DNA of 37,698 bases from a virus: positions 1 to 37,698 of the IMG/VR virus record IMGVR_UViG_3300012209_000327. One strand, given 5' to 3'. Made by a program: the position numbers and the translations under genes. Positions 3,733 to 31,258 of the stretch are shown piece after piece (within the stretch, counting starts at the first letter, position 1; each line of letters opens with the position of its first letter). The notes beneath the pieces were generated by a model. It worked only from the letters and a program-made list of their open reading frames with translations, had not been told where the DNA came from and ran no database searches.

Positions 3733-4260
3733 GTGAATGAATTTGATTTAAAGATAGCTTGGCTTGCTGGTTTATGGGATGGAGAAGGAAGTATAGGAAT
3801 TAGTGGAACCAAGGATCGTATGGCTGCTAATGCTCAAATGTGTATGACTTGTGAGAGGACTATTAAAACAGCTATAGATACTATGAAAGAGTTAGGTATT
3901 CGTGCTATTGGGTATACTTATCAGGAGAGAGATACTGTTAAACATAGGGATGCTTGCTATATTCGTGTGAATCGCATGAATGATATAAGAATTTTAGCTT
4001 CCGAAATGGTAAAGTACTCCGTGACAAAGTTAGAACATTGGAAGATTATATCAGAGTTTGTTACTTCTCGTCTAGAACATGCTAGATTGGATGATGGTGG
4101 TAGGGTTATTACTGGAGGGGTGACTGTTGGAAAAACAAGTTGGAAACCATACACAGAAAGAGAAAGAAACTTACAAATCAGGATTTCAGAAATTAATGCT
4201 AGAGGCCCGTCTGGTAGGCAAAGACGCACAACCAGTGAATACGGTAGAATGGATACATAG
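3733..4260 (+). CDS. LAGLIDADG homing endonuclease (HEG1)
   Basis: 175 aa from GTG 3733, with GAGGAAA at 3721-3727 as ribosome site. The signature LAGLWDGEGSI (residues 11-21) is the LAGLIDADG helix with its metal-binding acidic residue and the GEGS turn. A second half contains RVNRMNDIRILASEMVKYS, typical of single-motif enzymes that cut DNA as homodimers. The C-terminus is basic and overlaps the beginning of ParB2 in another frame. I see no group I intron core or intein splice residues around it, so it looks free-standing. It is flanked by two diverged copies of the ParB N-terminal coding sequence, pointing to homing with replacement of the neighbouring ParB 5' end. Confidence 0.85.
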   Translation: MNEFDLKIAWLAGLWDGEGSIGISGTKDRMAANAQMCMTCERTIKTAIDTMKELGIRAIGYTYQERDTVKHRDACYIRVNRMNDIRILASEMVKYSVTKLEHWKIISEFVTSRLEHARLDDGGRVITGGVTVGKTSWKPYTERERNLQIRISEINARGPSGRQRRTTSEYGRMDT

Positions 4261-5353
4261 AGATATATTACATGGTAACAGCTATAACCCGAACGTCGTA
4301 GCACCTATTGAGATGCATCTGCTTAAGATATCTATTCTTGAAGATGGGTGGACACAACCGATTGTGATTCGAGAACCTGAGCTATCCGTGATTTTACCTT
4401 GTGGACATGCCATTTTCATCGATAAGAAAAAGAAGAGTATAGTAAATAATCAAATAAAGGAATTAAATCAATGGTTACCCATACTCTTCCAAAAATCGAA
4501 GTTGTCGCTTACACTGCTGGACTCATCGACGGAGAGGGTAGTATCTACTTTTCAGAAAACAGGAAACATCCAAATGGGGGTTACTTCAGGGTTGCAGTTA
4601 GCCAATCAGGCAACAATCACGGAGACGAACTATGCGAATGGCTCAGGGATTCATGGGATATTGGACATTTCAGAAGGCAAGACACATCATTTGGAGAATG
4701 CTGGCACTGGCATGTTGACAGAATCAATGACATCAGACTCCTTCTTACAACCTGTTTGCCCTATCTGCGTGTTAAGCGCAAACGGGCAGAGGAGGCTCTG
4801 GCATTCTTGGAAACTTGGACAGGGGGAAAATCCAAGGGAAACTGGACTTCTGCTGAAGACGCTGTGCTCCTCGAACATTGGAGAGAGCAGGATAAACGAA
4901 TTGCAGAAATTCTCAACAACGGGAGAACCGAACAGGCTATTATGTGGAGAAGGCGCGTTGTGTTCAAATTGTCTAAACCTCGCGGAGGTTTCTGAAATTA
5001 TTGATGGCTACCATCGCTGGACCTGCTCTGCTGATCCACTGGTTTATGCCATGACCGATGGGTATGTTCCGATTGTCCGTCTTGTTGGAATTGATAAAGA
5101 CCACCAGATTATGTCTACGATACGCCATAATCGTGCTACAGGAACACATACGGTACTACGTATGGCTGATATTGTGCGAAGCCTGATTGACGATGAGAAA
5201 TGTTCGGTTACTGAAGTAATGAATCGACTTCAGATGGACAGCGAAGAAGTCGAGCGTCTGTATGATCGTGGTGGTATTCGAAAAATTGCCGCAAAAGATG
5301 ATTTTAATACAGGTTGGGTACCGGGGGATATAAAAAGTGACAGCTTTCAATAA
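4196..5353 (+). CDS. ParB-like protein (IbrB type) with embedded endonuclease gene
   Basis: The frame is open for 385 codons from ATG 4196 (it extends back to 4127 without clear support). Residues 8-60 hold the first half of a ParB domain (NPNVVAPIE, ISILEDGWTQPIVIRE). The second half restarts around residue 265 with EIIDGYHRWTC, followed by TDGYVPIVRL, IRHNRATGTHTVLRMADIV and a tail ending in GWVPG. Between them lie about 200 residues of unrelated composition that overlap the LAGLIDADG gene HEG2 in a different frame, with no stop codon in the ParB frame. Whether the product is a functional long protein, is spliced, or is inactive is unknown. It ends inside the cupin start. The expected partner is the IbrA-like protein at 2274. 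Confidence 0.7.
   Translation: MLEARLVGKDAQPVNTVEWIHRDILHGNSYNPNVVAPIEMHLLKISILEDGWTQPIVIREPELSVILPCGHAIFIDKKKKSIVNNQIKELNQWLPILFQKSKLSLTLLDSSTERVVSTFQKTGNIQMGVTSGLQLANQATITETNYANGSGIHGILDISEGKTHHLENAGTGMLTESMTSDSFLQPVCPICVLSANGQRRLWHSWKLGQGENPRETGLLLKTLCSSNIGESRINELQKFSTTGEPNRLLCGEGALCSNCLNLAEVSEIIDGYHRWTCSADPLVYAMTDGYVPIVRLVGIDKDHQIMSTIRHNRATGTHTVLRMADIVRSLIDDEKCSVTEVMNRLQMDSEEVERLYDRGGIRKIAAKDDFNTGWVPGDIKSDSFQ
4471..4995 (+). CDS. LAGLIDADG homing endonuclease (HEG2) inside ParB2
   Basis: 174 aa from ATG 4471 with AAAGGA at 4456-4461. TAGLIDGEGSIYF (about residues 14-26) is the LAGLIDADG helix and catalytic acidic residue. A following basic region with WHVDRINDIRLLLTTCLPYL fits the second half of single-motif enzymes, and the C-terminal 40 residues resemble a helix-turn-helix DNA-binding tail. 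It lies entirely within ParB2 but is read in the frame offset by +2, and the ParB frame remains open beneath it. No group I intron core and no intein C-terminal His-Asn were found at its edges. Confidence 0.85.
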   Translation: MVTHTLPKIEVVAYTAGLIDGEGSIYFSENRKHPNGGYFRVAVSQSGNNHGDELCEWLRDSWDIGHFRRQDTSFGECWHWHVDRINDIRLLLTTCLPYLRVKRKRAEEALAFLETWTGGKSKGNWTSAEDAVLLEHWREQDKRIAEILNNGRTEQAIMWRRRVVFKLSKPRGGF

Positions 5354-6920: not shown

Positions 6921-7415
6921 GTGGTGGAAGAATTAACTCGTCAGCGCCGTCAAGGTCAGACCATGACCGATGAAGAACGGAAAAGGGCACAGGCATTGTT
7001 TCTGGAATCATTTCGTAATAATGCCAATGTGAGATTAGCTTCGTCAAAGGCAGGAATACACAGAAGTTTATTCTATGTATGGTTGGAGAAAGACGCTGAA
7101 TTTTCTCTTGAGTATAAAAGTGCTGAACTTGATGCCAATGATGTTGTCCGGGCTGCAATATATCAAAGGGCTGTTATGGGTGTCGAAGAGCCTGTTGTTG
7201 CCATGGGGAAAGTCATGTATGACAAGGAAGGCCACATGATTATGGTGAAACGTTATAGTGATGCACTCTTAATGAGACTTGCATCGGCCCGTATGCCTGA
7301 ATTTCGTAATGATCAGAAAGTGGAGCATAGTGGTTCTATTGATATCAATGGTGCCAGGGAATCACTCCTTGGAAAATTAGCAGTACGTGTTAAACCATCT
7401 GGAGAAGCAGAATAG
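6921..7415 (+). CDS. Terminase small subunit-like protein
   Basis: 164 aa. AGGAGG at 6911-6916 precedes two in-frame GTGs at 6921 and 6924; the second has the better spacing. The N-terminal half contains a helix-turn-helix-like segment (NVRLASSKAGIHRSLFYVWLEKD) as in DNA-binding phage small terminases. The C-terminal region with YSDALLMRLASARMPEF is a frequent feature of these proteins. Small subunits recognise the packaging site and load the large subunit. It is separated from the large terminase by four glycosyltransferase genes, an unusual arrangement. Its last base is shared with the start of the first glycosyltransferase. Confidence 0.72.
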   Translation: MVEELTRQRRQGQTMTDEERKRAQALFLESFRNNANVRLASSKAGIHRSLFYVWLEKDAEFSLEYKSAELDANDVVRAAIYQRAVMGVEEPVVAMGKVMYDKEGHMIMVKRYSDALLMRLASARMPEFRNDQKVEHSGSIDINGARESLLGKLAVRVKPSGEAE

Positions 7416-8170
7416 TGTATCCACTCTATATTCCCAGTAAAGGACGGTCAACGACTGCCACAACTCCACGATTGTGTGAACGTTCTCATGTTTCCTATAT
7501 CCTTGTAGTTGAGCAGCAGGAATATGTTGCATACCAGAAATATTTTCCTGCTGCTCAAGAAATTCTGGTATTGCCAGAAAGTAATCAGGGTTTATGGTTT
7601 GCTCGTAACTGGATACTACAGTATGAACAGCAACATGGTGGAACATGGCATTGGGAATTAGACGATGATATTCGCTCGTTTTGGATACAAGATGCATCAC
7701 ATATACTCAAGAACACTGTTCTGGTATTAGAGCAGGCCGAAAAAGTTTGCCATGATCCACGTGTCGCACAAATTGGAATCTCTCGGAAGGCACGAAAATT
7801 TCCAAAGGTTCCCTATGTAGAAAACGATGCCTGCTATACCGTTGTCTGCAATCACACATCGAGAATACTTGAAGTGGGTCAGTATCGTCCTGGCGTACCT
7901 GAAGACACTGATATGTGTTTACAGCTTCTCACCAATGGATGGAAAACATTGCGTTGGGAGCACTATTCATTCGACTCTCCGTTTAACGGACAAGGAGAAG
8001 GTGGATTGCATGATGATTATGCCAATAAGAAAGATTCCATCTGGGCAGAAAACATGGTGAAATTGTGGGGTCCTGAACTATGCCATGTGGTTACTACTCC
8101 AGCAAAGCGAAAACGTGCAAATATTCGATGGGAGTATTTTTCTCATGTATCCGATCTACATAGTAAGTAA
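7415..8170 (+). CDS. TET-associated-type glycosyltransferase (TAGT), copy 1
   Basis: 251 aa from GTG 7415, which shares a base with the preceding stop. Features in order: YPLYIPSKGR nucleotide-sugar-binding start, VVEQQEY strand, LPESNQGLWFARN, the metal-binding ELDDDIRSFW (DDD at about 83-85), a Cys-containing VVCNHTS strand, PEDTDMCLQLLTNGW, and GGLHDDYANK before a final basic strand. This is the pattern I know for TET-associated glycosyltransferases of phages, GT-A-like enzymes predicted to glycosylate hydroxymethylated bases in DNA. No TET/JBP oxygenase is visible in this window. The sugar donor is unknown. Confidence 0.8.
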   Translation: MYPLYIPSKGRSTTATTPRLCERSHVSYILVVEQQEYVAYQKYFPAAQEILVLPESNQGLWFARNWILQYEQQHGGTWHWELDDDIRSFWIQDASHILKNTVLVLEQAEKVCHDPRVAQIGISRKARKFPKVPYVENDACYTVVCNHTSRILEVGQYRPGVPEDTDMCLQLLTNGWKTLRWEHYSFDSPFNGQGEGGLHDDYANKKDSIWAENMVKLWGPELCHVVTTPAKRKRANIRWEYFSHVSDLHSK

Positions 8171-8921
8171 GGGAAGAGCGGAAACAATATCCACTCCAAA
8201 AGTGTTGGATACTGTAGGTATTCCTTATACCTTTGTTCTTGAGCAACAAGAATATGAAGCATATCGCCACCACTTTCCACAGTCTCCCGTGGTGGTCTTG
8301 CCGGAATCACACAAGGGCATTGCATATGTGAGAAATTGGCTTCTTCAGTATGCAGCACAGCAAGGGCATACGTGGTACTGGATGATGGATGATGATATTC
8401 GAGGATTCTGGAAAGTGGAGCGGGGGGAGTATGTTCCTGCTGATGCAACAGTATTACTTGGTGCTGAAAAAGCCACGACCTGGGAAAATATCGTTCAGGT
8501 TTCTTTATGCACGAAATGGAAATCTGGACCAGCTAGAAAAGATCAGTATGTTTTAAATACGGACTGTTCTCGCGTCGTGTGTCAGCAAGCACAAATACTT
8601 TCGAAGTTTGCTGAATACTGCCCGGACCTTCCCCTATTTTCTGATGCGGATTTCACATTGCAGGCTCTTCATCGTGGATATCAAACAGTGACCTGGCAAA
8701 CATATGCGCAGTATACCTATTTCTGTGGTTCGAACAAGGGTGGATTGCATGAGACATATCGATCAGAAGATTTGCTTTTGTGGGCAGAGAAACTTCGTAG
8801 CCGTTGGGGAAAAGATATTGTGAAGATCAGGAAAAATAATGTTGGGAAACTTCGGCCGGACGTTCAGTGGAATTATTTTTCGGAAGGAGTAAAACGTGTA
8901 TCCGGTATACATCCCAAGTAA
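8145..8921 (+). CDS. TET-associated-type glycosyltransferase, copy 2
   Basis: 258 aa from ATG 8145, chosen because the family start (MYPIYIVSKGR) begins exactly there and GGGAG lies 10 bases upstream; it overlaps copy 1 by 26 bases. It keeps YWMMDDDIRGFWK as the metal site and GGLHETY near the end. The late acidic motif is SDADFTLQALHRGY instead of the EDTDM-type motif of copies 1 and 3, the most divergent version of this site. It may therefore differ in sugar, acceptor or activity. It overlaps copy 3 by 26 bases, preserving tight coupling. Confidence 0.78.
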   Translation: MYPIYIVSKGRAETISTPKVLDTVGIPYTFVLEQQEYEAYRHHFPQSPVVVLPESHKGIAYVRNWLLQYAAQQGHTWYWMMDDDIRGFWKVERGEYVPADATVLLGAEKATTWENIVQVSLCTKWKSGPARKDQYVLNTDCSRVVCQQAQILSKFAEYCPDLPLFSDADFTLQALHRGYQTVTWQTYAQYTYFCGSNKGGLHETYRSEDLLLWAEKLRSRWGKDIVKIRKNNVGKLRPDVQWNYFSEGVKRVSGIHPK

Positions 8922-9630
8922 AGGACGTGCGGAAACGGCTACTACTCCAAAGCTTCTTGAACAGGTAAATATTCCATACACTCTAGTTGTGGAACAGCAA
9001 GAAGCAAGAGACTATATAAAACATTTTCCAAATGCTCGTGTGACGGTACTGAATGAAAGTCATCGAGGAATTGCTTATGCAAGAAATGCTATCCTTGAGT
9101 ATGCGCGTTCAGATCATCCTGGTTGGTATTGGATGATTGACGACGACATTAAGCAGTTTTACAGACTACAGGACACTATATTTTTGAACGATACTGCACG
9201 AGTACTGGAAGATGTTGAAAAACTAGTAAATCAACATCAACGTCTTGCACAGGCAACGATTGGAAGAAAGAACCGTACAAAACAGAAACTTCCACTTTGT
9301 TGGAATGTAAGTTGTTGTGGATGTGTTTGTAACCATGCCGACCGGGTTGGAACCTATCGAGAACATGTGCAAGAAGATACGGATATGAGTCTCCAGGTGG
9401 TGAGTGCTGGATATATGACAGTGCAATTCAATCACATTGTGCTCTCTACTCCATTACGTGGTCAAAATACGGGGGGGTTGCAGGAAGCGTATGCCAGAAA
9501 AGATCCGCTTGAATGGTCCCAAAATCTTGTAAATATCTGGGGTTCTGCTATTTGTCGCATAAAAAAGACGAAAAGTGCTGTCAAAGTCCATGTGAACTGG
9601 GATTATTTTCCTAGCCCGTTGGAGAAATAA
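8896..9630 (+). CDS. TET-associated-type glycosyltransferase, copy 3
   Basis: 244 aa from GTG 8896 with GGAAGGAG just upstream inside copy 2. All family motifs are present: YPVYIPSKGRAETATTPKLL, VVEQQEARDY, LNESHRGIAYARN, YWMIDDDIKQFYR, the VCNHADR strand, QEDTDMSLQVVSAGY and GGLQEAYARKDP. It is one of the two copies closest to the family consensus. Like the others it lacks a signal peptide or membrane segment, consistent with a cytoplasmic enzyme acting on phage DNA or its precursors. Confidence 0.8.
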   Translation: MYPVYIPSKGRAETATTPKLLEQVNIPYTLVVEQQEARDYIKHFPNARVTVLNESHRGIAYARNAILEYARSDHPGWYWMIDDDIKQFYRLQDTIFLNDTARVLEDVEKLVNQHQRLAQATIGRKNRTKQKLPLCWNVSCCGCVCNHADRVGTYREHVQEDTDMSLQVVSAGYMTVQFNHIVLSTPLRGQNTGGLQEAYARKDPLEWSQNLVNIWGSAICRIKKTKSAVKVHVNWDYFPSPLEK

Positions 9631-9633
9631 AAT

Positions 9634-10353
9634 ATGATACCGCTCTATATTCCGACAAAAGGAAGATGGGACACTGCAACAACTCCAGCATTACTTGGAT
9701 CATATCCATATATTCTGGTGGTGGAAAAACAGGAAGAGCGGAATTATCGGGAAATTTTTCCTTCCACGGAAATTCTTGTGCTACCGGAATCTAACCAGGG
9801 TATAGCCTATGCCAGAAATTATATCAATCAACAAGAGTCCGAATGGTATTGGATGCTGGATGACGATCTTACCGGTTTGTATCGAAAAGGGGTTACTGGG
9901 AAATACAAGAAAGCAGACGGGTCTATTCTTCATGAGATGGAAAAATATCTCAATAATCAGATAGCACAGATGGGCCTGGTACTCCCCCGGTGGAAAGTTA
10001 GTCAAGATCTTTCGTGGAATAAAACATGTGGATGCATTGTCTGCAATCATGCAGGAAAACTAAGAGAGATTGGAGTTTCTTATAGACAAGGTGTTCCTGT
10101 CGATACAGATATGACACTGCAAATTTTAACTTCAGGCTATCGTACATTACGTCTTTCCAATTATGCCTTTACTATTCCACCACATGGAAGTAATAAAGGC
10201 GGTCTGTATGAAGTATATGCAAGTGGCGAAAAGAATCAGTGGCTTCTCAACTTTCAACAATACTGGGGAAAAGAACTGGTTACTTTAAAAAGAGGAAAAC
10301 AAGGAAAGATGTCTGCAAGAGTACATCTTGAAATGTTTATGGTAGAAAGTTAG
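9634..10353 (+). CDS. TET-associated-type glycosyltransferase, copy 4
   Basis: 239 aa from ATG 9634, three bases after copy 3 ends, with GGAG upstream. Motifs: IPLYIPTKGRWDTATTPALL, VVEKQEERNY, LPESNQGIAYARN, YWMLDDDLTGLYR, IVCNHAG, VPVDTDMTLQILTSGY, GGLYEVYASGEK. It is slightly shorter in the central part than the others. It ends the + strand modification block; a 285-base non-coding stretch separates it from the large terminase. Confidence 0.8.
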   Translation: MIPLYIPTKGRWDTATTPALLGSYPYILVVEKQEERNYREIFPSTEILVLPESNQGIAYARNYINQQESEWYWMLDDDLTGLYRKGVTGKYKKADGSILHEMEKYLNNQIAQMGLVLPRWKVSQDLSWNKTCGCIVCNHAGKLREIGVSYRQGVPVDTDMTLQILTSGYRTLRLSNYAFTIPPHGSNKGGLYEVYASGEKNQWLLNFQQYWGKELVTLKRGKQGKMSARVHLEMFMVES

Positions 10354-10638: not shown

Positions 10639-13368
10639 ATGGTAGTGACTGCGGAACAATTTCAAAATTATAGAACATTTGCCAATCTTTCAAAAGAAGA
10701 GAAATATCAGTTCATTGAAGGATTGAACGATGAAGAATCTCTGCAACTGAAATTCACCTGGGAAGCATGGGCACGTGACAAACAACTAGAACCACCTGGC
10801 GATTGGTGGAGTACCTGGCTCATACTTGCAGGCAGAGGATTCGGAAAATCGAGAACTGGCGCAGAATGGATTAGAAAACAGGTAGAAGCAGGAAGATACG
10901 GTAGAATTGCCATAGTTGGAAGAACAGCAGCAGATGTAAGAGATGTCATGCTGTATGGTGAGTCTGGGCTAGTTACAAATAGCCCTCCCTGGTTTATGCC
11001 GAAACATGAGGGAACACGTAGAAGACTCGTATGGCCGAACGGCGCTATTGCCACAACGTATAGTGCCGAGGAACCTAATTCAATGCGCGGACCGCAGCAC
11101 GACGCTGCCTGGTGTCTGGTAGGACATACTCTTGTCCTGATGTCTGACGGAACAGAAAAACCAATAGCAGAAATTCGTGTAGGAGATTACGTTCAAACCA
11201 GGTTAGGAGCCAAACGAGTAACCGGAAGCTCATTAATGGAAAAGAATACTAAGGTGTACCTACTACGTACCATGGACGGAAGAAATCTAGTAGGAACAGC
11301 CTCTCATAAGGTTTGGGAGACTGAAAAGGGGTTTATTCCCTTAGCATCTTTTTCAGAAGGAATGAACGTATGTGTGACGCATGCATCGAATTGGACGGCT
11401 ACATCTGGCATAAACGTGCCAGCAGAGACTACTACGAAAGACGCATCTTGTTGCACCGTTATGTTTGGGAACAAACGTACGGAAAAATACCAGAAGGATA
11501 TCATATCCATCACAGAAATGAAGATAAGACGGATAACCGACTGGAAAATTTGGAATTGCTTACACATGGGGAACACAGTTCTCTGCACTATTCAAGACTG
11601 GCTCCCTATAAAGAAAAAGCCTGGGCTAACGCTAAGAAATCAATGGATGAGAATAAGCACTTACGTATGCAGCGTGTCCTCACTTGTACCTATTGTGAGA
11701 AGGCATTCCATAGCCCTTCGGCCCACCCGACTAGTTTCTGTTCATCGGCCTGCGTTGAGGCTTACAGGTCAGGGGCTTTCAGGGGGGAGGTTAGGTTGTG
11801 CGAGTACTGCGGTGAGGAATATACAGCTACGAAGAGAGCACAGTTATACTGCTCGAAAAAGTGTAACGGGAGAGCTTCCGCACAGAGAGCCGGACAACTC
11901 GTGGTTCAATCAATCACCTGTGATTACTGCCAAAAAGTGTTTGAGTCGAAGAGAGCAAATGCTCGGTTCTGCTGTGATGGTTGCGCCAAAGCTTTCCACG
12001 CAACCAATCGTTACCGTAAAAAGATTAAAGAAAACTTATGATGTCTACGATATAACAGTTGAGGATGCCCATGAGTTTTTTGCAAATGGCATCCTCGTTC
12101 ATAACTGTGACGAAATATGTTTAACTGCGGGTTCCCAGGTGCTTACTTCGGAAGGTGAAAAACCGATTGAAGGTATTGTACCTGGGGATCTTATTTTAAC
12201 TAGGGTGGGTTTTAAAAGGGCGACTACAGCAGGGTGTACAAGTAAAAACTCCACTGTATCCCTTCTCCAGCTTTCTACTGGAAGATCTATTATGGGTACC
12301 GCGTCTCATCCAATATGGGTCCAGGGAAAAGGATTCTCTCCATTGGGAACTCTCCGGCCTGGGGATATTTTAATAGATGAGCAGAGTTCTGAAGTTTCCT
12401 GTGTTTCAGTAGCGAAACTTCATAATAAAATGGCAGTCTTTAACTTGGAGGTAGAGGACTGCCATGAGTATTTTGCAAACGGAATACTTACGCATAACTG
12501 TGCGTGGCGCACCTCAGATTCGCTAGATCAGCTTTTGCTCGGCCTCCGTCTCGGACCTCATCCACGTGTCATACTCACTACCACCCCCCGTCCAACGAAA
12601 GAGATCAAACAACTTGTCAAAATGAGTACGACCTATGTCACCAATGGGACTACTTATGAAAATCGTGATAATCTTGCCCAGATGTTCTTTGATCAAGTTA
12701 TTCGTAAGTTCGAAAACAGTCGCCTTGGACGCCAAGAACTACTAGCTCAATTATTGGATGATGCAGAAGGGGCATTATGGAAACGTGAAGCCATGATTGA
12801 GCAGTATCGTGTTGTGAAAGCTCCAGATCTGGTACGTGTAGTGGTTGGTGTGGACCCGGCAACAACATCTGAAGAAGATTCTGATGAGACTGGTATTGTT
12901 GTGGCAGGTCGTGGTGCTGATGGTCACTTGTATATTCTCGATGATCTTTCATTACGTGGCAGTCCTCAAGAATGGGCTACACAGGCTGTTACTGCTTACT
13001 ACAAATATCAGGCTGATCGCATTATTGGAGAATCTAACCAGGGTGGAGATATGGTAGAGAATACGATCAGGATGGTTGACAGATATGTGGCCTACAAGAA
13101 GGTTCATAGTAAGCGGGGGAAGTACGCTCGTGCTGAACCAGTTGCCGCATTGTATGAACAGGGGAGAGGTCATCATGTTGGCATGTTCCCTGAACTTGAG
13201 GATCAACTTTGTTCGTGGGAACAAGGTGTAGCAGAGTCGCCGGATCGTCTAGATGCTCTTGTTCATGCTGCAACTGAACTCATGTTAGAAGGATATAGTG
13301 GAGATGGTGGTGTAATCACCATGTCTTCACTCAATATTCCGGGTGACGAGTTCAACCCATTCTGGTAA
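10639..13368 (+). CDS. Terminase large subunit precursor with two inteins
   Basis: 909 aa precursor; removing two inteins leaves about 451 aa, normal for a large terminase. Exteins: Walker A LAGRGFGKSRTGAEW (about 63-77), YSAEEPNSMRGPQHDAAW before intein 1, then CDEI, intein 2, then CAWRTSDSLDQLLLGLRLG and the ATPase coupling motif TTTPRPTK. Joined, WCDEICAW forms Walker B with the catalytic Glu. The C-terminal RNase H-like nuclease begins at VVGVDPATTSEEDSDETG, with further acidic positions at IGESNQGGD and SPDRLDALVHA. The protein cuts and pumps DNA into the prohead as part of the packaging motor. Splicing of both inteins is needed to restore the ATPase site. Confidence 0.95.
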   Translation: MVVTAEQFQNYRTFANLSKEEKYQFIEGLNDEESLQLKFTWEAWARDKQLEPPGDWWSTWLILAGRGFGKSRTGAEWIRKQVEAGRYGRIAIVGRTAADVRDVMLYGESGLVTNSPPWFMPKHEGTRRRLVWPNGAIATTYSAEEPNSMRGPQHDAAWCLVGHTLVLMSDGTEKPIAEIRVGDYVQTRLGAKRVTGSSLMEKNTKVYLLRTMDGRNLVGTASHKVWETEKGFIPLASFSEGMNVCVTHASNWTATSGINVPAETTTKDASCCTVMFGNKRTEKYQKDIISITEMKIRRITDWKIWNCLHMGNTVLCTIQDWLPIKKKPGLTLRNQWMRISTYVCSVSSLVPIVRRHSIALRPTRLVSVHRPALRLTGQGLSGGRLGCASTAVRNIQLRREHSYTARKSVTGELPHREPDNSWFNQSPVITAKKCLSRREQMLGSAVMVAPKLSTQPIVTVKRLKKTYDVYDITVEDAHEFFANGILVHNCDEICLTAGSQVLTSEGEKPIEGIVPGDLILTRVGFKRATTAGCTSKNSTVSLLQLSTGRSIMGTASHPIWVQGKGFSPLGTLRPGDILIDEQSSEVSCVSVAKLHNKMAVFNLEVEDCHEYFANGILTHNCAWRTSDSLDQLLLGLRLGPHPRVILTTTPRPTKEIKQLVKMSTTYVTNGTTYENRDNLAQMFFDQVIRKFENSRLGRQELLAQLLDDAEGALWKREAMIEQYRVVKAPDLVRVVVGVDPATTSEEDSDETGIVVAGRGADGHLYILDDLSLRGSPQEWATQAVTAYYKYQADRIIGESNQGGDMVENTIRMVDRYVAYKKVHSKRGKYARAEPVAALYEQGRGHHVGMFPELEDQLCSWEQGVAESPDRLDALVHAATELMLEGYSGDGGVITMSSLNIPGDEFNPFW
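11113..12105 (+). other. Intein 1 in TerL, carrying an HNH gene out of frame
   Basis: Residues 159-489 of the precursor (331 aa). The start is Cys (CLVGHTLVLMSDGTEKPI) with block B GTASHKVW (TxxH). The end is DITVEDAHEFFANGILVHN followed by Cys, giving the standard His-Asn/Cys splice junction. The middle, about residues 245-455, has no intein or endonuclease similarity in the TerL frame because this DNA encodes the HNH protein at 11370-12041 in another frame. The intein frame nevertheless lacks stops, so the splicing domain should be translated with a long spacer. Confidence 0.9.
11370..12041 (+). CDS. HNH endonuclease encoded in another frame inside intein 1
   Basis: 223 aa from ATG 11370, with AGAAGGA at 11355-11361. 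RYVWEQTYGKIPEGYHIHHRNEDKTDNRLENLELLTHGEHSSLH is summarised by its key parts: IHHRNEDKTDNRLENL is the HNH core (HH, N, N), and LTHGEHS closes the site, typical of phage HNH homing nucleases. Three Cys-rich fingers follow: CTYCEKAFHSP, CEYCGEEYTA with CSKKC, and CDYCQKVFES. The gene sits at frame offset +2 relative to the terminase frame, so both frames are open over 224 codons. It likely drives homing of intein 1 but is made as a separate protein rather than as part of the intein. Confidence 0.88.
   Translation: MCDACIELDGYIWHKRASRDYYERRILLHRYVWEQTYGKIPEGYHIHHRNEDKTDNRLENLELLTHGEHSSLHYSRLAPYKEKAWANAKKSMDENKHLRMQRVLTCTYCEKAFHSPSAHPTSFCSSACVEAYRSGAFRGEVRLCEYCGEEYTATKRAQLYCSKKCNGRASAQRAGQLVVQSITCDYCQKVFESKRANARFCCDGCAKAFHATNRYRKKIKENL
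12118..12498 (+). other. Mini-intein 2 in TerL
   Basis: Residues 494-620 of the precursor (127 aa), only four extein residues (CDEI) after intein 1. It starts CLTAGSQVLTSEGEKPIEG, has block B GTASHPIW, and ends NLEVEDCHEYFANGILTHN followed by Cys. It lacks any endonuclease domain, near the minimum size for an autonomous splicing domain. It is clearly homologous to intein 1 in blocks A, B, F and G, suggesting both derive from a common ancestor or one arose by a jump to a neighbouring Cys codon. Confidence 0.9.
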
Positions 13369-30355: not shown

Positions 30356-31258
30356 TTAACTATCGACACCACGCTTGTCATAAGCACTCAAAGAGGAAAA
30401 CAATCGATTAGACTTCCTTTGATTACACACGGCATGAGTAGGTCTGATATTATCGGTTGTATGACTCCCTGGTTCTATTCCAGAGCCTTCTTGAGGAACC
30501 AATGGAATAACATGGTCATAATGGAGTTTTTGATCTGGAAAGATTTCTTTCACGCAGATATAGCACCACGGCCCATGTTCTTCCAAGATTTTTCGATAGT
30601 TGACTGGTCCAGTTTTTACTCCAAGTTTTGCTGCCAAACGTTTCCTATAATATCCAGCATACAATTCTGGATTCTCTTTTCTATGCTTTCGATGCATAGC
30701 ATTGATATGCTCTGGATCATTAGGATGTGTTCTGTAATAGTTTTTACCGTATTCAGAAATGTGCTCTCGATATTCGGGATCTGTAGCGAGACGATTTTGA
30801 CGCCGTTCTCTGTTCTGAACAACAAAAGTGTTATTGTATGCCCTTCTCTGTTCGAGGTTTGCAATGTAGCATGCGTGGTGGCGTTCATTGATTCTGTCCC
30901 TAGTTCTATCCGCAATGACTTTCTTTCTTTGACGCTCATGCTCCCTACAGTAGGTGGCATATCCATCTTTGATTCCAGCACTCTTGTTGAATTTTTCCAC
31001 TGGTTTTTCTTCATTACAGTCTGGGCAAAATTTGTTGAGCAGAAACAATGGTTGTTGCACAATATTTTCAGATCTTTTTTGAAGATTTTTCAGACCTATA
31101 CGGGCATTTTCACATTTTCTGCATATGGTTCTAATGCCTCGTTTAGTGTCACTTCTTCCAGGGAAAAATTTAATAGTAGCAGAGAAAGGTTTCCCACATG
31201 CACTACAGTTTTGCATGTTGCTAGGACCTTCTTCTTGAAGGTCGCTAACGATTTCCAT
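30356..31258 (-). CDS. Free-standing HNH endonuclease (inserted, antisense)
   Basis: 300 aa from ATG 31258, with AAGGAGT upstream, opposite in direction to the surrounding structural genes. Two N-terminal Cys-rich knuckles (CSACGKPFSA with CRKC, and CPDCNEEKPVEKF with C) precede a basic helical linker. The C-terminal nuclease has CYICVKEIFPDQKLHYDHVI (HxDH), IRPTHAVCNQRKSN, the endonuclease VII/HNH arrangement. It separates the protease/scaffold from the major capsid gene. A likely mobile homing gene. The + strand stays free of stops across it (30344-31372), with an AAGGAG-GTG start. Confidence 0.88.
   Translation of the reverse strand: MEIVSDLQEEGPSNMQNCSACGKPFSATIKFFPGRSDTKRGIRTICRKCENARIGLKNLQKRSENIVQQPLFLLNKFCPDCNEEKPVEKFNKSAGIKDGYATYCREHERQRKKVIADRTRDRINERHHACYIANLEQRRAYNNTFVVQNRERRQNRLATDPEYREHISEYGKNYYRTHPNDPEHINAMHRKHRKENPELYAGYYRKRLAAKLGVKTGPVNYRKILEEHGPWCYICVKEIFPDQKLHYDHVIPLVPQEGSGIEPGSHTTDNIRPTHAVCNQRKSNRLFSSLSAYDKRGVDS

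Follow-up and report, generated by a model that had tools for sequence, protein, structure and literature searches.

Inteins are usually described as one polypeptide in which the homing nuclease is a domain read in the same frame as the splicing blocks. The HNH nuclease I-HmuI is encoded in a group I intron. Fractured genes, which combine split inteins (gp41-1, NrdJ-1) with a free-standing endonuclease, were reportedly described by Dassa et al. 2009. In the dCTP deaminase of cyanophage CL131 HintN and HNH_3 are present in one ORF, and splicing was shown (PMC6293099). The ShiLan domain and the Pacc40 insertion of phage DNA methylases contain a hidden out-of-frame HNH gene, explicitly without an intein or intron (PMC11855218). 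No inteins with an out-of-frame, alternative-frame or overlapping endonuclease were found described in the literature searched, outside of which most subscription papers lay.

We analysed a viral DNA stretch of 37,698 nucleotides (IMG/VR record IMGVR_UViG_3300012209_000327; the window), in which an HNH gene lies within an intein of the large terminase gene. The locus comprises the following features (slashes mark intein junctions).

10639..13368, + strand: terL, large terminase ORF, 909 aa, with two inteins (Pfam Terminase_6N, Terminase_6C, Intein_splicing)
11113..12105, + strand: intein 1, 331 aa, within the Walker B motif, DAAW/C...N/CDEI (TIGR01445, TIGR01443)
11113..11385, + strand: N-terminal splicing block of intein 1, residues 1-91, predicted Hint fold (AlphaFold; Foldseek)
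11355..11361, + strand: AGAAGGA, putative ribosome-binding site of the HNH gene, 8 nt 5' of its ATG (read directly)
11370..12041, + strand: hidden HNH homing endonuclease gene, 223 aa, ATG start, TGA at 12039-12041, offset +2 relative to terL (Pfam HNH_3; AlphaFold)
11398..11970, + strand: filler spacer of intein 1, residues 96-286 (pLDDT mostly <50)
11448..11579, + strand: HNH_3 nuclease core, HNH residues 27-70 (Pfam)
11685..12002, + strand: three CxxC...C zinc-finger-like units, HNH residues 106-128, 144-165 and 184-211 (sequence)
11989..12105, + strand: C-terminal splicing block of intein 1, residues 293-331, ending ...VYDITVEDAHEFFANGILVHN (pLDDT 90-97; TIGR01443)
12106..12117, + strand: extein segment CDEI, four residues with the Walker B acid pair, separating inteins 1 and 2
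12118..12498, + strand: intein 2, 127 aa, a mini-intein without nuclease

The terL gene is read as a single open frame from 10639 to 13368 and is not divided into separately translated halves, as a fractured gene would be. Intein 1 begins with C1 at 11113, the nucleophile of block A, and ends at 12105 with LVHN/C, that is with N331 followed by Cys. The TerL ORF matched Intein_splicing above the Pfam gathering score and TIGR01445 (intein_Nterm) with 26.5 vs 24.5 bits, and the C-terminus of intein 1 matched TIGR01443 (intein_Cterm) above the cut-off. AlphaFold assigned the intein frame pLDDT values of 96-98 for residues 1-90 and of 90-97 for the last 40 residues, and values below 50 for most of residues 96-286 (segments 96-151, 186-259 and 261-286). 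The best Foldseek match of this model was the gp41-1 intein (6qaz), which was also the nearest solved structure by sequence profile. By all features of its sequence and of its modelled fold, intein 1 is a predicted self-splicing intein. Intein 2 shares about 42% identity with the splicing blocks of intein 1, and the predicted TerL junction after loss of both inteins reads DAAW-CDEI-CAWRTSD. The two inteins are only four residues apart, inside the Walker B motif of TerL.

The original prediction placed an HNH gene with its own ribosome site in the +2 frame of intein 1, and both the gene and the AGAAGGA sequence were confirmed. The ORF from 11370 to 12041 matches Pfam HNH_3 (E=1.9e-18) including the HNH catalytic core and lies wholly within the intein (11113-12105), the TerL frame is open throughout the overlap, and AGAAGGA is present at 11355-11361, 8 nt from the ATG. 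Expression of the HNH protein from its own ribosome site is plausible. The nuclease is not read in the frame of the splicing blocks; its offset is +2 in this locus and in all relatives with a contiguous intein. For the HNH frame of the same DNA AlphaFold gave a mean pLDDT of 87 with no residue below 50. A Foldseek search with this model returned I-HmuI as a weak match (probability 0.80 but E=0.11), and a PDB sequence search with the HNH alignment gave no match. According to the models, the intein frame would fold into a Hint domain interrupted by a disordered spacer, and a zinc-finger HNH protein is confidently predicted for the HNH frame. The proposal that the locus combines an intein carrying a filler spacer with a separate, overprinted nuclease is supported by the frames, the motifs, the predicted structures and many relatives.

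A tblastn search of the HNH protein against phages gave first matches in terL of Tetrasphaera phage TJE1 and Acinetobacter phage Highwayman; reading of the frames located the HNH gene at +2 inside a TerL intein in both. Further hidden cases were found in Rhodobacteraceae phage MD07 and in one fecal contig. A first census, consisting of two IMG/VR scans with HNH alignments and a scan of GTDB genomes, yielded at least 224 HNH ORFs in 175 clusters at 90%; 92 HNH were located within a larger same-strand ORF at +2, 77 were not hidden and 5 were longer proteins. The single apparent +1 case (L119) has no intein. Five doubtful rows were dropped from the 92, leaving 87 credible hidden loci. As had been proposed, inteins with out-of-frame endonuclease genes were also searched for directly. 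All of the best 80 matches in this intein-alignment scan showed an HNH match at +2 to the intein frame; a strong HNH ORF was present in 78 of the 80, and another frame was also open in one of these 78. Both approaches together gave at least 165 loci in phage or prophage sequences, mostly in TerL. Grouping by HNH identity resulted in at least 155 clusters at 90%, 144 at 70% and 68 at 50%; the scans were seeded with hidden members and gave the best 80 matches each, and the loci are related, so that these counts are neither prevalence estimates nor numbers of independent events. No in-frame HNH version was seen in this HNH-intein family among the matches listed. Two loci (L274 and L275, 4001-4441) show short intein-like stretches, which measure about 176 aa in the profile match and retain a truncated HNH at +2; they may represent decay towards a mini-intein.

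The Pfam profile Intein_splicing was matched in 36 of 40 host ORFs scanned. The hosts are mainly terminases; in L092 (2361-5681) and L093 the hidden HNH intein is located in a phage portal gene. In the 85 inteins that were mapped residue 1 is always Cys, and the terminal Asn is followed by C, S or T. Most of them are inserted in the nuclease active-site region of TerL with the pattern NH/C.DAxRY, four in Walker B. This range of sites (several in TerL, and the portal gene), together with the number of clusters at 90% and 50% identity, speaks for the repeated mode of invasion suggested earlier. The HNH gene starts 65-98 aa downstream of the intein C1 and stops 12-27 aa (median 19) upstream of the terminal Asn; as judged by these distances, it is found at the usual endonuclease position of inteins.

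Genome comparison shows for Highwayman alone that the intein was gained recently. The joined TerL exteins of Highwayman are 99.1-99.5% identical to the intein-less terminases of at least 8 Acinetobacter phages (ten records, two duplicates), and Acba_21 and Abp9 were used as intein-less partners. BP10 was rejected as a partner because its TerL is too distant. In the comparison with Acba_21, identity is 99.6% over 1.6 kb of one flank and 99.4% over 1.5 kb of the other, and the insertion is exactly the 981-nt intein. The changes are clustered in the first 13 bases after the intein, where Leu is replaced by the required +1 Cys. This pattern matches the prediction of homing with short co-conversion, although it is no proof that the Highwayman HNH acted.

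Taken together, intein 1 is very probably a mobile intein, the homing endonuclease of which is not an intein domain but a separately initiated HNH/zinc-finger gene overprinted at +2. Beside the architecture, openness, occurrence and predicted folds documented above, we infer four processes: internal initiation, splicing, cleavage and homing. Translation of terL would yield a precursor composed of the N-terminal splicing block, a meaningless disordered spacer and the C-terminal splicing block, from which intein 1 would excise itself in cis and ligate TerL. Other ribosomes would start at the internal ATG at 11370 and produce the free HNH endonuclease. This enzyme would cut intein-less terL alleles, and the whole 993-bp element would then be copied in during co-infection. 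Within the overlap, the intein frame would have to be little more than stop-free, the conserved information would reside in the HNH frame, and the filler would be a by-product.

An open intein frame could also arise by chance if HNH/zinc-finger codons rarely give stops at +2. Indeed, a stop at +2 requires an A or G after an HNH codon of the form NTA or NTG, and such codons specify Leu, Ile, Val and Met only; a stop at +1 arises when NNT is followed by a codon for Lys, Asn, Ser, Arg, Asp or Glu that begins with AA, AG or GA. Permutation of synonymous codons in the HNH gene gave a mean of just 3.6 expected stops at +2 with none observed (P(0)=0.0014), and 16.6 expected stops at +1 with 22 observed; resampling by third-base composition gave 4.8 expected stops at +2 (P=0.0014). 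Openness over 224 codons is thus significant, but the expectation of about 10 random stops in the original prediction was too high. The recurrent +2 offset is explained in the same way, because the genetic code leaves +2 as the sole workable same-strand offset for HNH/zinc-finger coding, and no special invasion mechanism is needed. Nevertheless, the 87 hidden genes have no offset-2 stop at all, where the null predicts on average 2.4 stops each and a stop-free fraction of 0.098, while the non-hidden relatives contain a mean of 7.0 stops in that frame (null 6.8) and are stop-free in 0 of 71 cases. The joint log10 P of openness is about -133 over loci that are related to one another, and the open frame connects two splicing blocks of an essential gene. 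Based on the permutation and the non-hidden relatives, chance openness was rejected; its probability is close to nil. A sequencing frameshift separating what is in truth one joint frame would need two compensating errors in this locus and again in each of more than 150 independent clusters, some of them from finished phage genomes, and the number of loci excludes it in practice. RNA splicing of an intron, with the HNH gene as an ordinary intron ORF, has an equally negligible probability: group I introns commonly carry HNH genes, but an Rfam search of 11000-12600 revealed no intron RNA match at E<=1, such as a group I intron would give, and the intein motifs are complete and accompanied by a predicted Hint fold.

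Production of the HNH protein by -1 programmed frameshifting, as a fusion to the N-intein in which the nuclease is effectively still an intein domain, is improbable as well. The offset of +2 equals a -1 shift, and 15 of the 87 loci have slippery heptamers in host phase close to the junction (6.2 expected from host windows), an excess which could reflect composition or occasional frameshifting. Furthermore, a Shine-Dalgarno sequence of at least 5 nt precedes 32% of the hidden HNH genes vs 74-76% of the fractured and free ones (background 6-12%), and initiation in many hidden genes may therefore be weak or differently controlled. However, the HNH frame contains a stop at a median distance of 15 nt upstream of its ATG, GTG or TTG start (ATG in 78 of 87), which speaks for a start of its own rather than a long frameshift fusion. 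In addition, fractured and free-standing relatives have their own starts, and no slippery heptamer was found near the junction of the HNH gene in this window. Even less probable is a functionless HNH frame, i.e. a decaying relic or by-product beside an intein that alone is active. Expression of the HNH gene is a prediction, and some relatives are truncated or broken (L017; the short HNH remnants of L274 and L275). Nevertheless, the HNH core motif is kept in 87 of 87 loci, the homology across loci resides in the HNH frame, the insertion in Highwayman is recent and precise, and codon usage is shaped by a double constraint. Among NTN codons, the share of NTA falls to half in hidden genes (0.114 vs 0.224, p=5e-9), NTN codons are slightly fewer and ATG is reduced; thus, the overlap has shaped the nuclease sequence. 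Hidden pairs at 40-70% identity show slightly higher conservation at fourfold sites of the HNH gene, though pairs above 70% do not, and for this reason the filler may not be wholly free.

If the HNH gene is a separately initiated gene overprinted on the intein, fractured genes could originate from such loci: once the spacer acquired stops, the locus would consist of an N-half, the HNH gene and a C-half whose start already lies within the HNH gene. The non-hidden loci include about 26 fractured ones, in which the HNH gene is preceded by an intein N-half, followed by a C-half, or both, and about 50 free-standing HNH genes, often adjoining terL; Vibrio phages 1.238 and 1.245 are annotated fractured examples. 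The C-half is at +2 to the HNH gene in 21 of 25 fractured loci (p=3e-7 if independent), and the frame of the N-half is random, as is expected if the fractured loci passed through the overlapped state. Five of them show +2 on both sides with stops between, as in a hidden locus whose spacer has been interrupted. The HNH tree, which is unrooted, has many weak branches and gives no direction, requires at least 28 changes among the hidden, fractured and free states. Its long hidden-only clades indicate that the hidden state is stable. Since one HNH family occurs hidden, fractured and free, the overlapped form and split inteins can probably be converted into one another. It seems to us an evenly balanced question whether overprinted-endonuclease inteins constitute a large, old and hitherto unrecognised class of mobile inteins and a natural source of fractured genes.

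A second ORF of the window also harbours a hidden nuclease gene.

4127-5353: ParB2, a ParB-like ORF with a LAGLIDADG-like ORF inside at 4471-4995, offset +2

The nuclease gene in ParB2 (HEG2) had been proposed to share the frame offset and mode of invasion of the HNH gene. The offset is indeed +2, but no intein motifs were seen, which makes this insertion a ShiLan-like hidden gene of another nuclease family, unlike intein 1. The apparent insertion lies between WTQPIVIRE (ending at 4375) and EIIDGYHRW (starting at 4994), and the stop of the LAGLIDADG-like ORF overlaps the resumed ParB sequence; neither an Rfam intron match nor phage relatives were found for it. Among the relatives of the HNH gene, a DNA methylase of Cylindrospermopsis phage Cr-LKS3 (L009:2372-2839) contains an HNH at +2 without an intein and is apparently ShiLan-like, too. 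Further homing-type nuclease ORFs (LAGLIDADG-like and HNH) are located at 3733-4260 (+) and 30356-31258 (-), and the window thus contains at least four homing-type nuclease genes. Four tandem paralogues of TET-associated glycosyltransferases (Pfam TAGT) were detected at 7415-10353, and PIG-L deacetylase and PAPS-reductase-like genes are also present. This gene set suggests hypermodified DNA.

A phage intein family that splits splicing and nuclease into two overlapping genes appears to be a widespread but overlooked design of mobile inteins. Since the nuclease is encoded by a separate overlapping gene, standard annotation shows the terminase alone and misses it; indeed, the public genome records of TJE1, Highwayman and MD07 annotate only terL at the locus. 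Such loci offer a concrete path that connects inteins of three kinds (mini, nuclease-bearing and split) with free-standing homing genes, and isolated phages could be used to test how fractured genes originated. They also provide a large natural set of overlapping genes, with one frame that has to be little more than open. As in classical inteins, e.g. that of CL131, a homing nuclease is placed between the splicing blocks at the usual insertion point, but it is read at +2 with its own start and stop instead of in the intein's frame. With fractured genes the locus shares a separate nuclease gene between N- and C-intein; it differs in that the gene is contiguous, the intein is in cis and the nuclease overlaps the intein in another frame. 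Nucleases of the I-HmuI type likewise combine an HNH core with DNA-binding modules, although the structural match is weak (E=0.11). The nearest precedent to an intein with an overprinted HNH gene is the ShiLan out-of-frame HNH: as in the ShiLan and Pacc40 insertions, an HNH/zinc-finger gene occupies the third frame of a stop-free in-frame insertion, and the HNH stop is found at the insertion end. However, a self-splicing domain is absent from those insertions, which presumably remain in the protein, whereas intein 1 includes a splicing element, a complete intein from which the extein could be restored by splicing.
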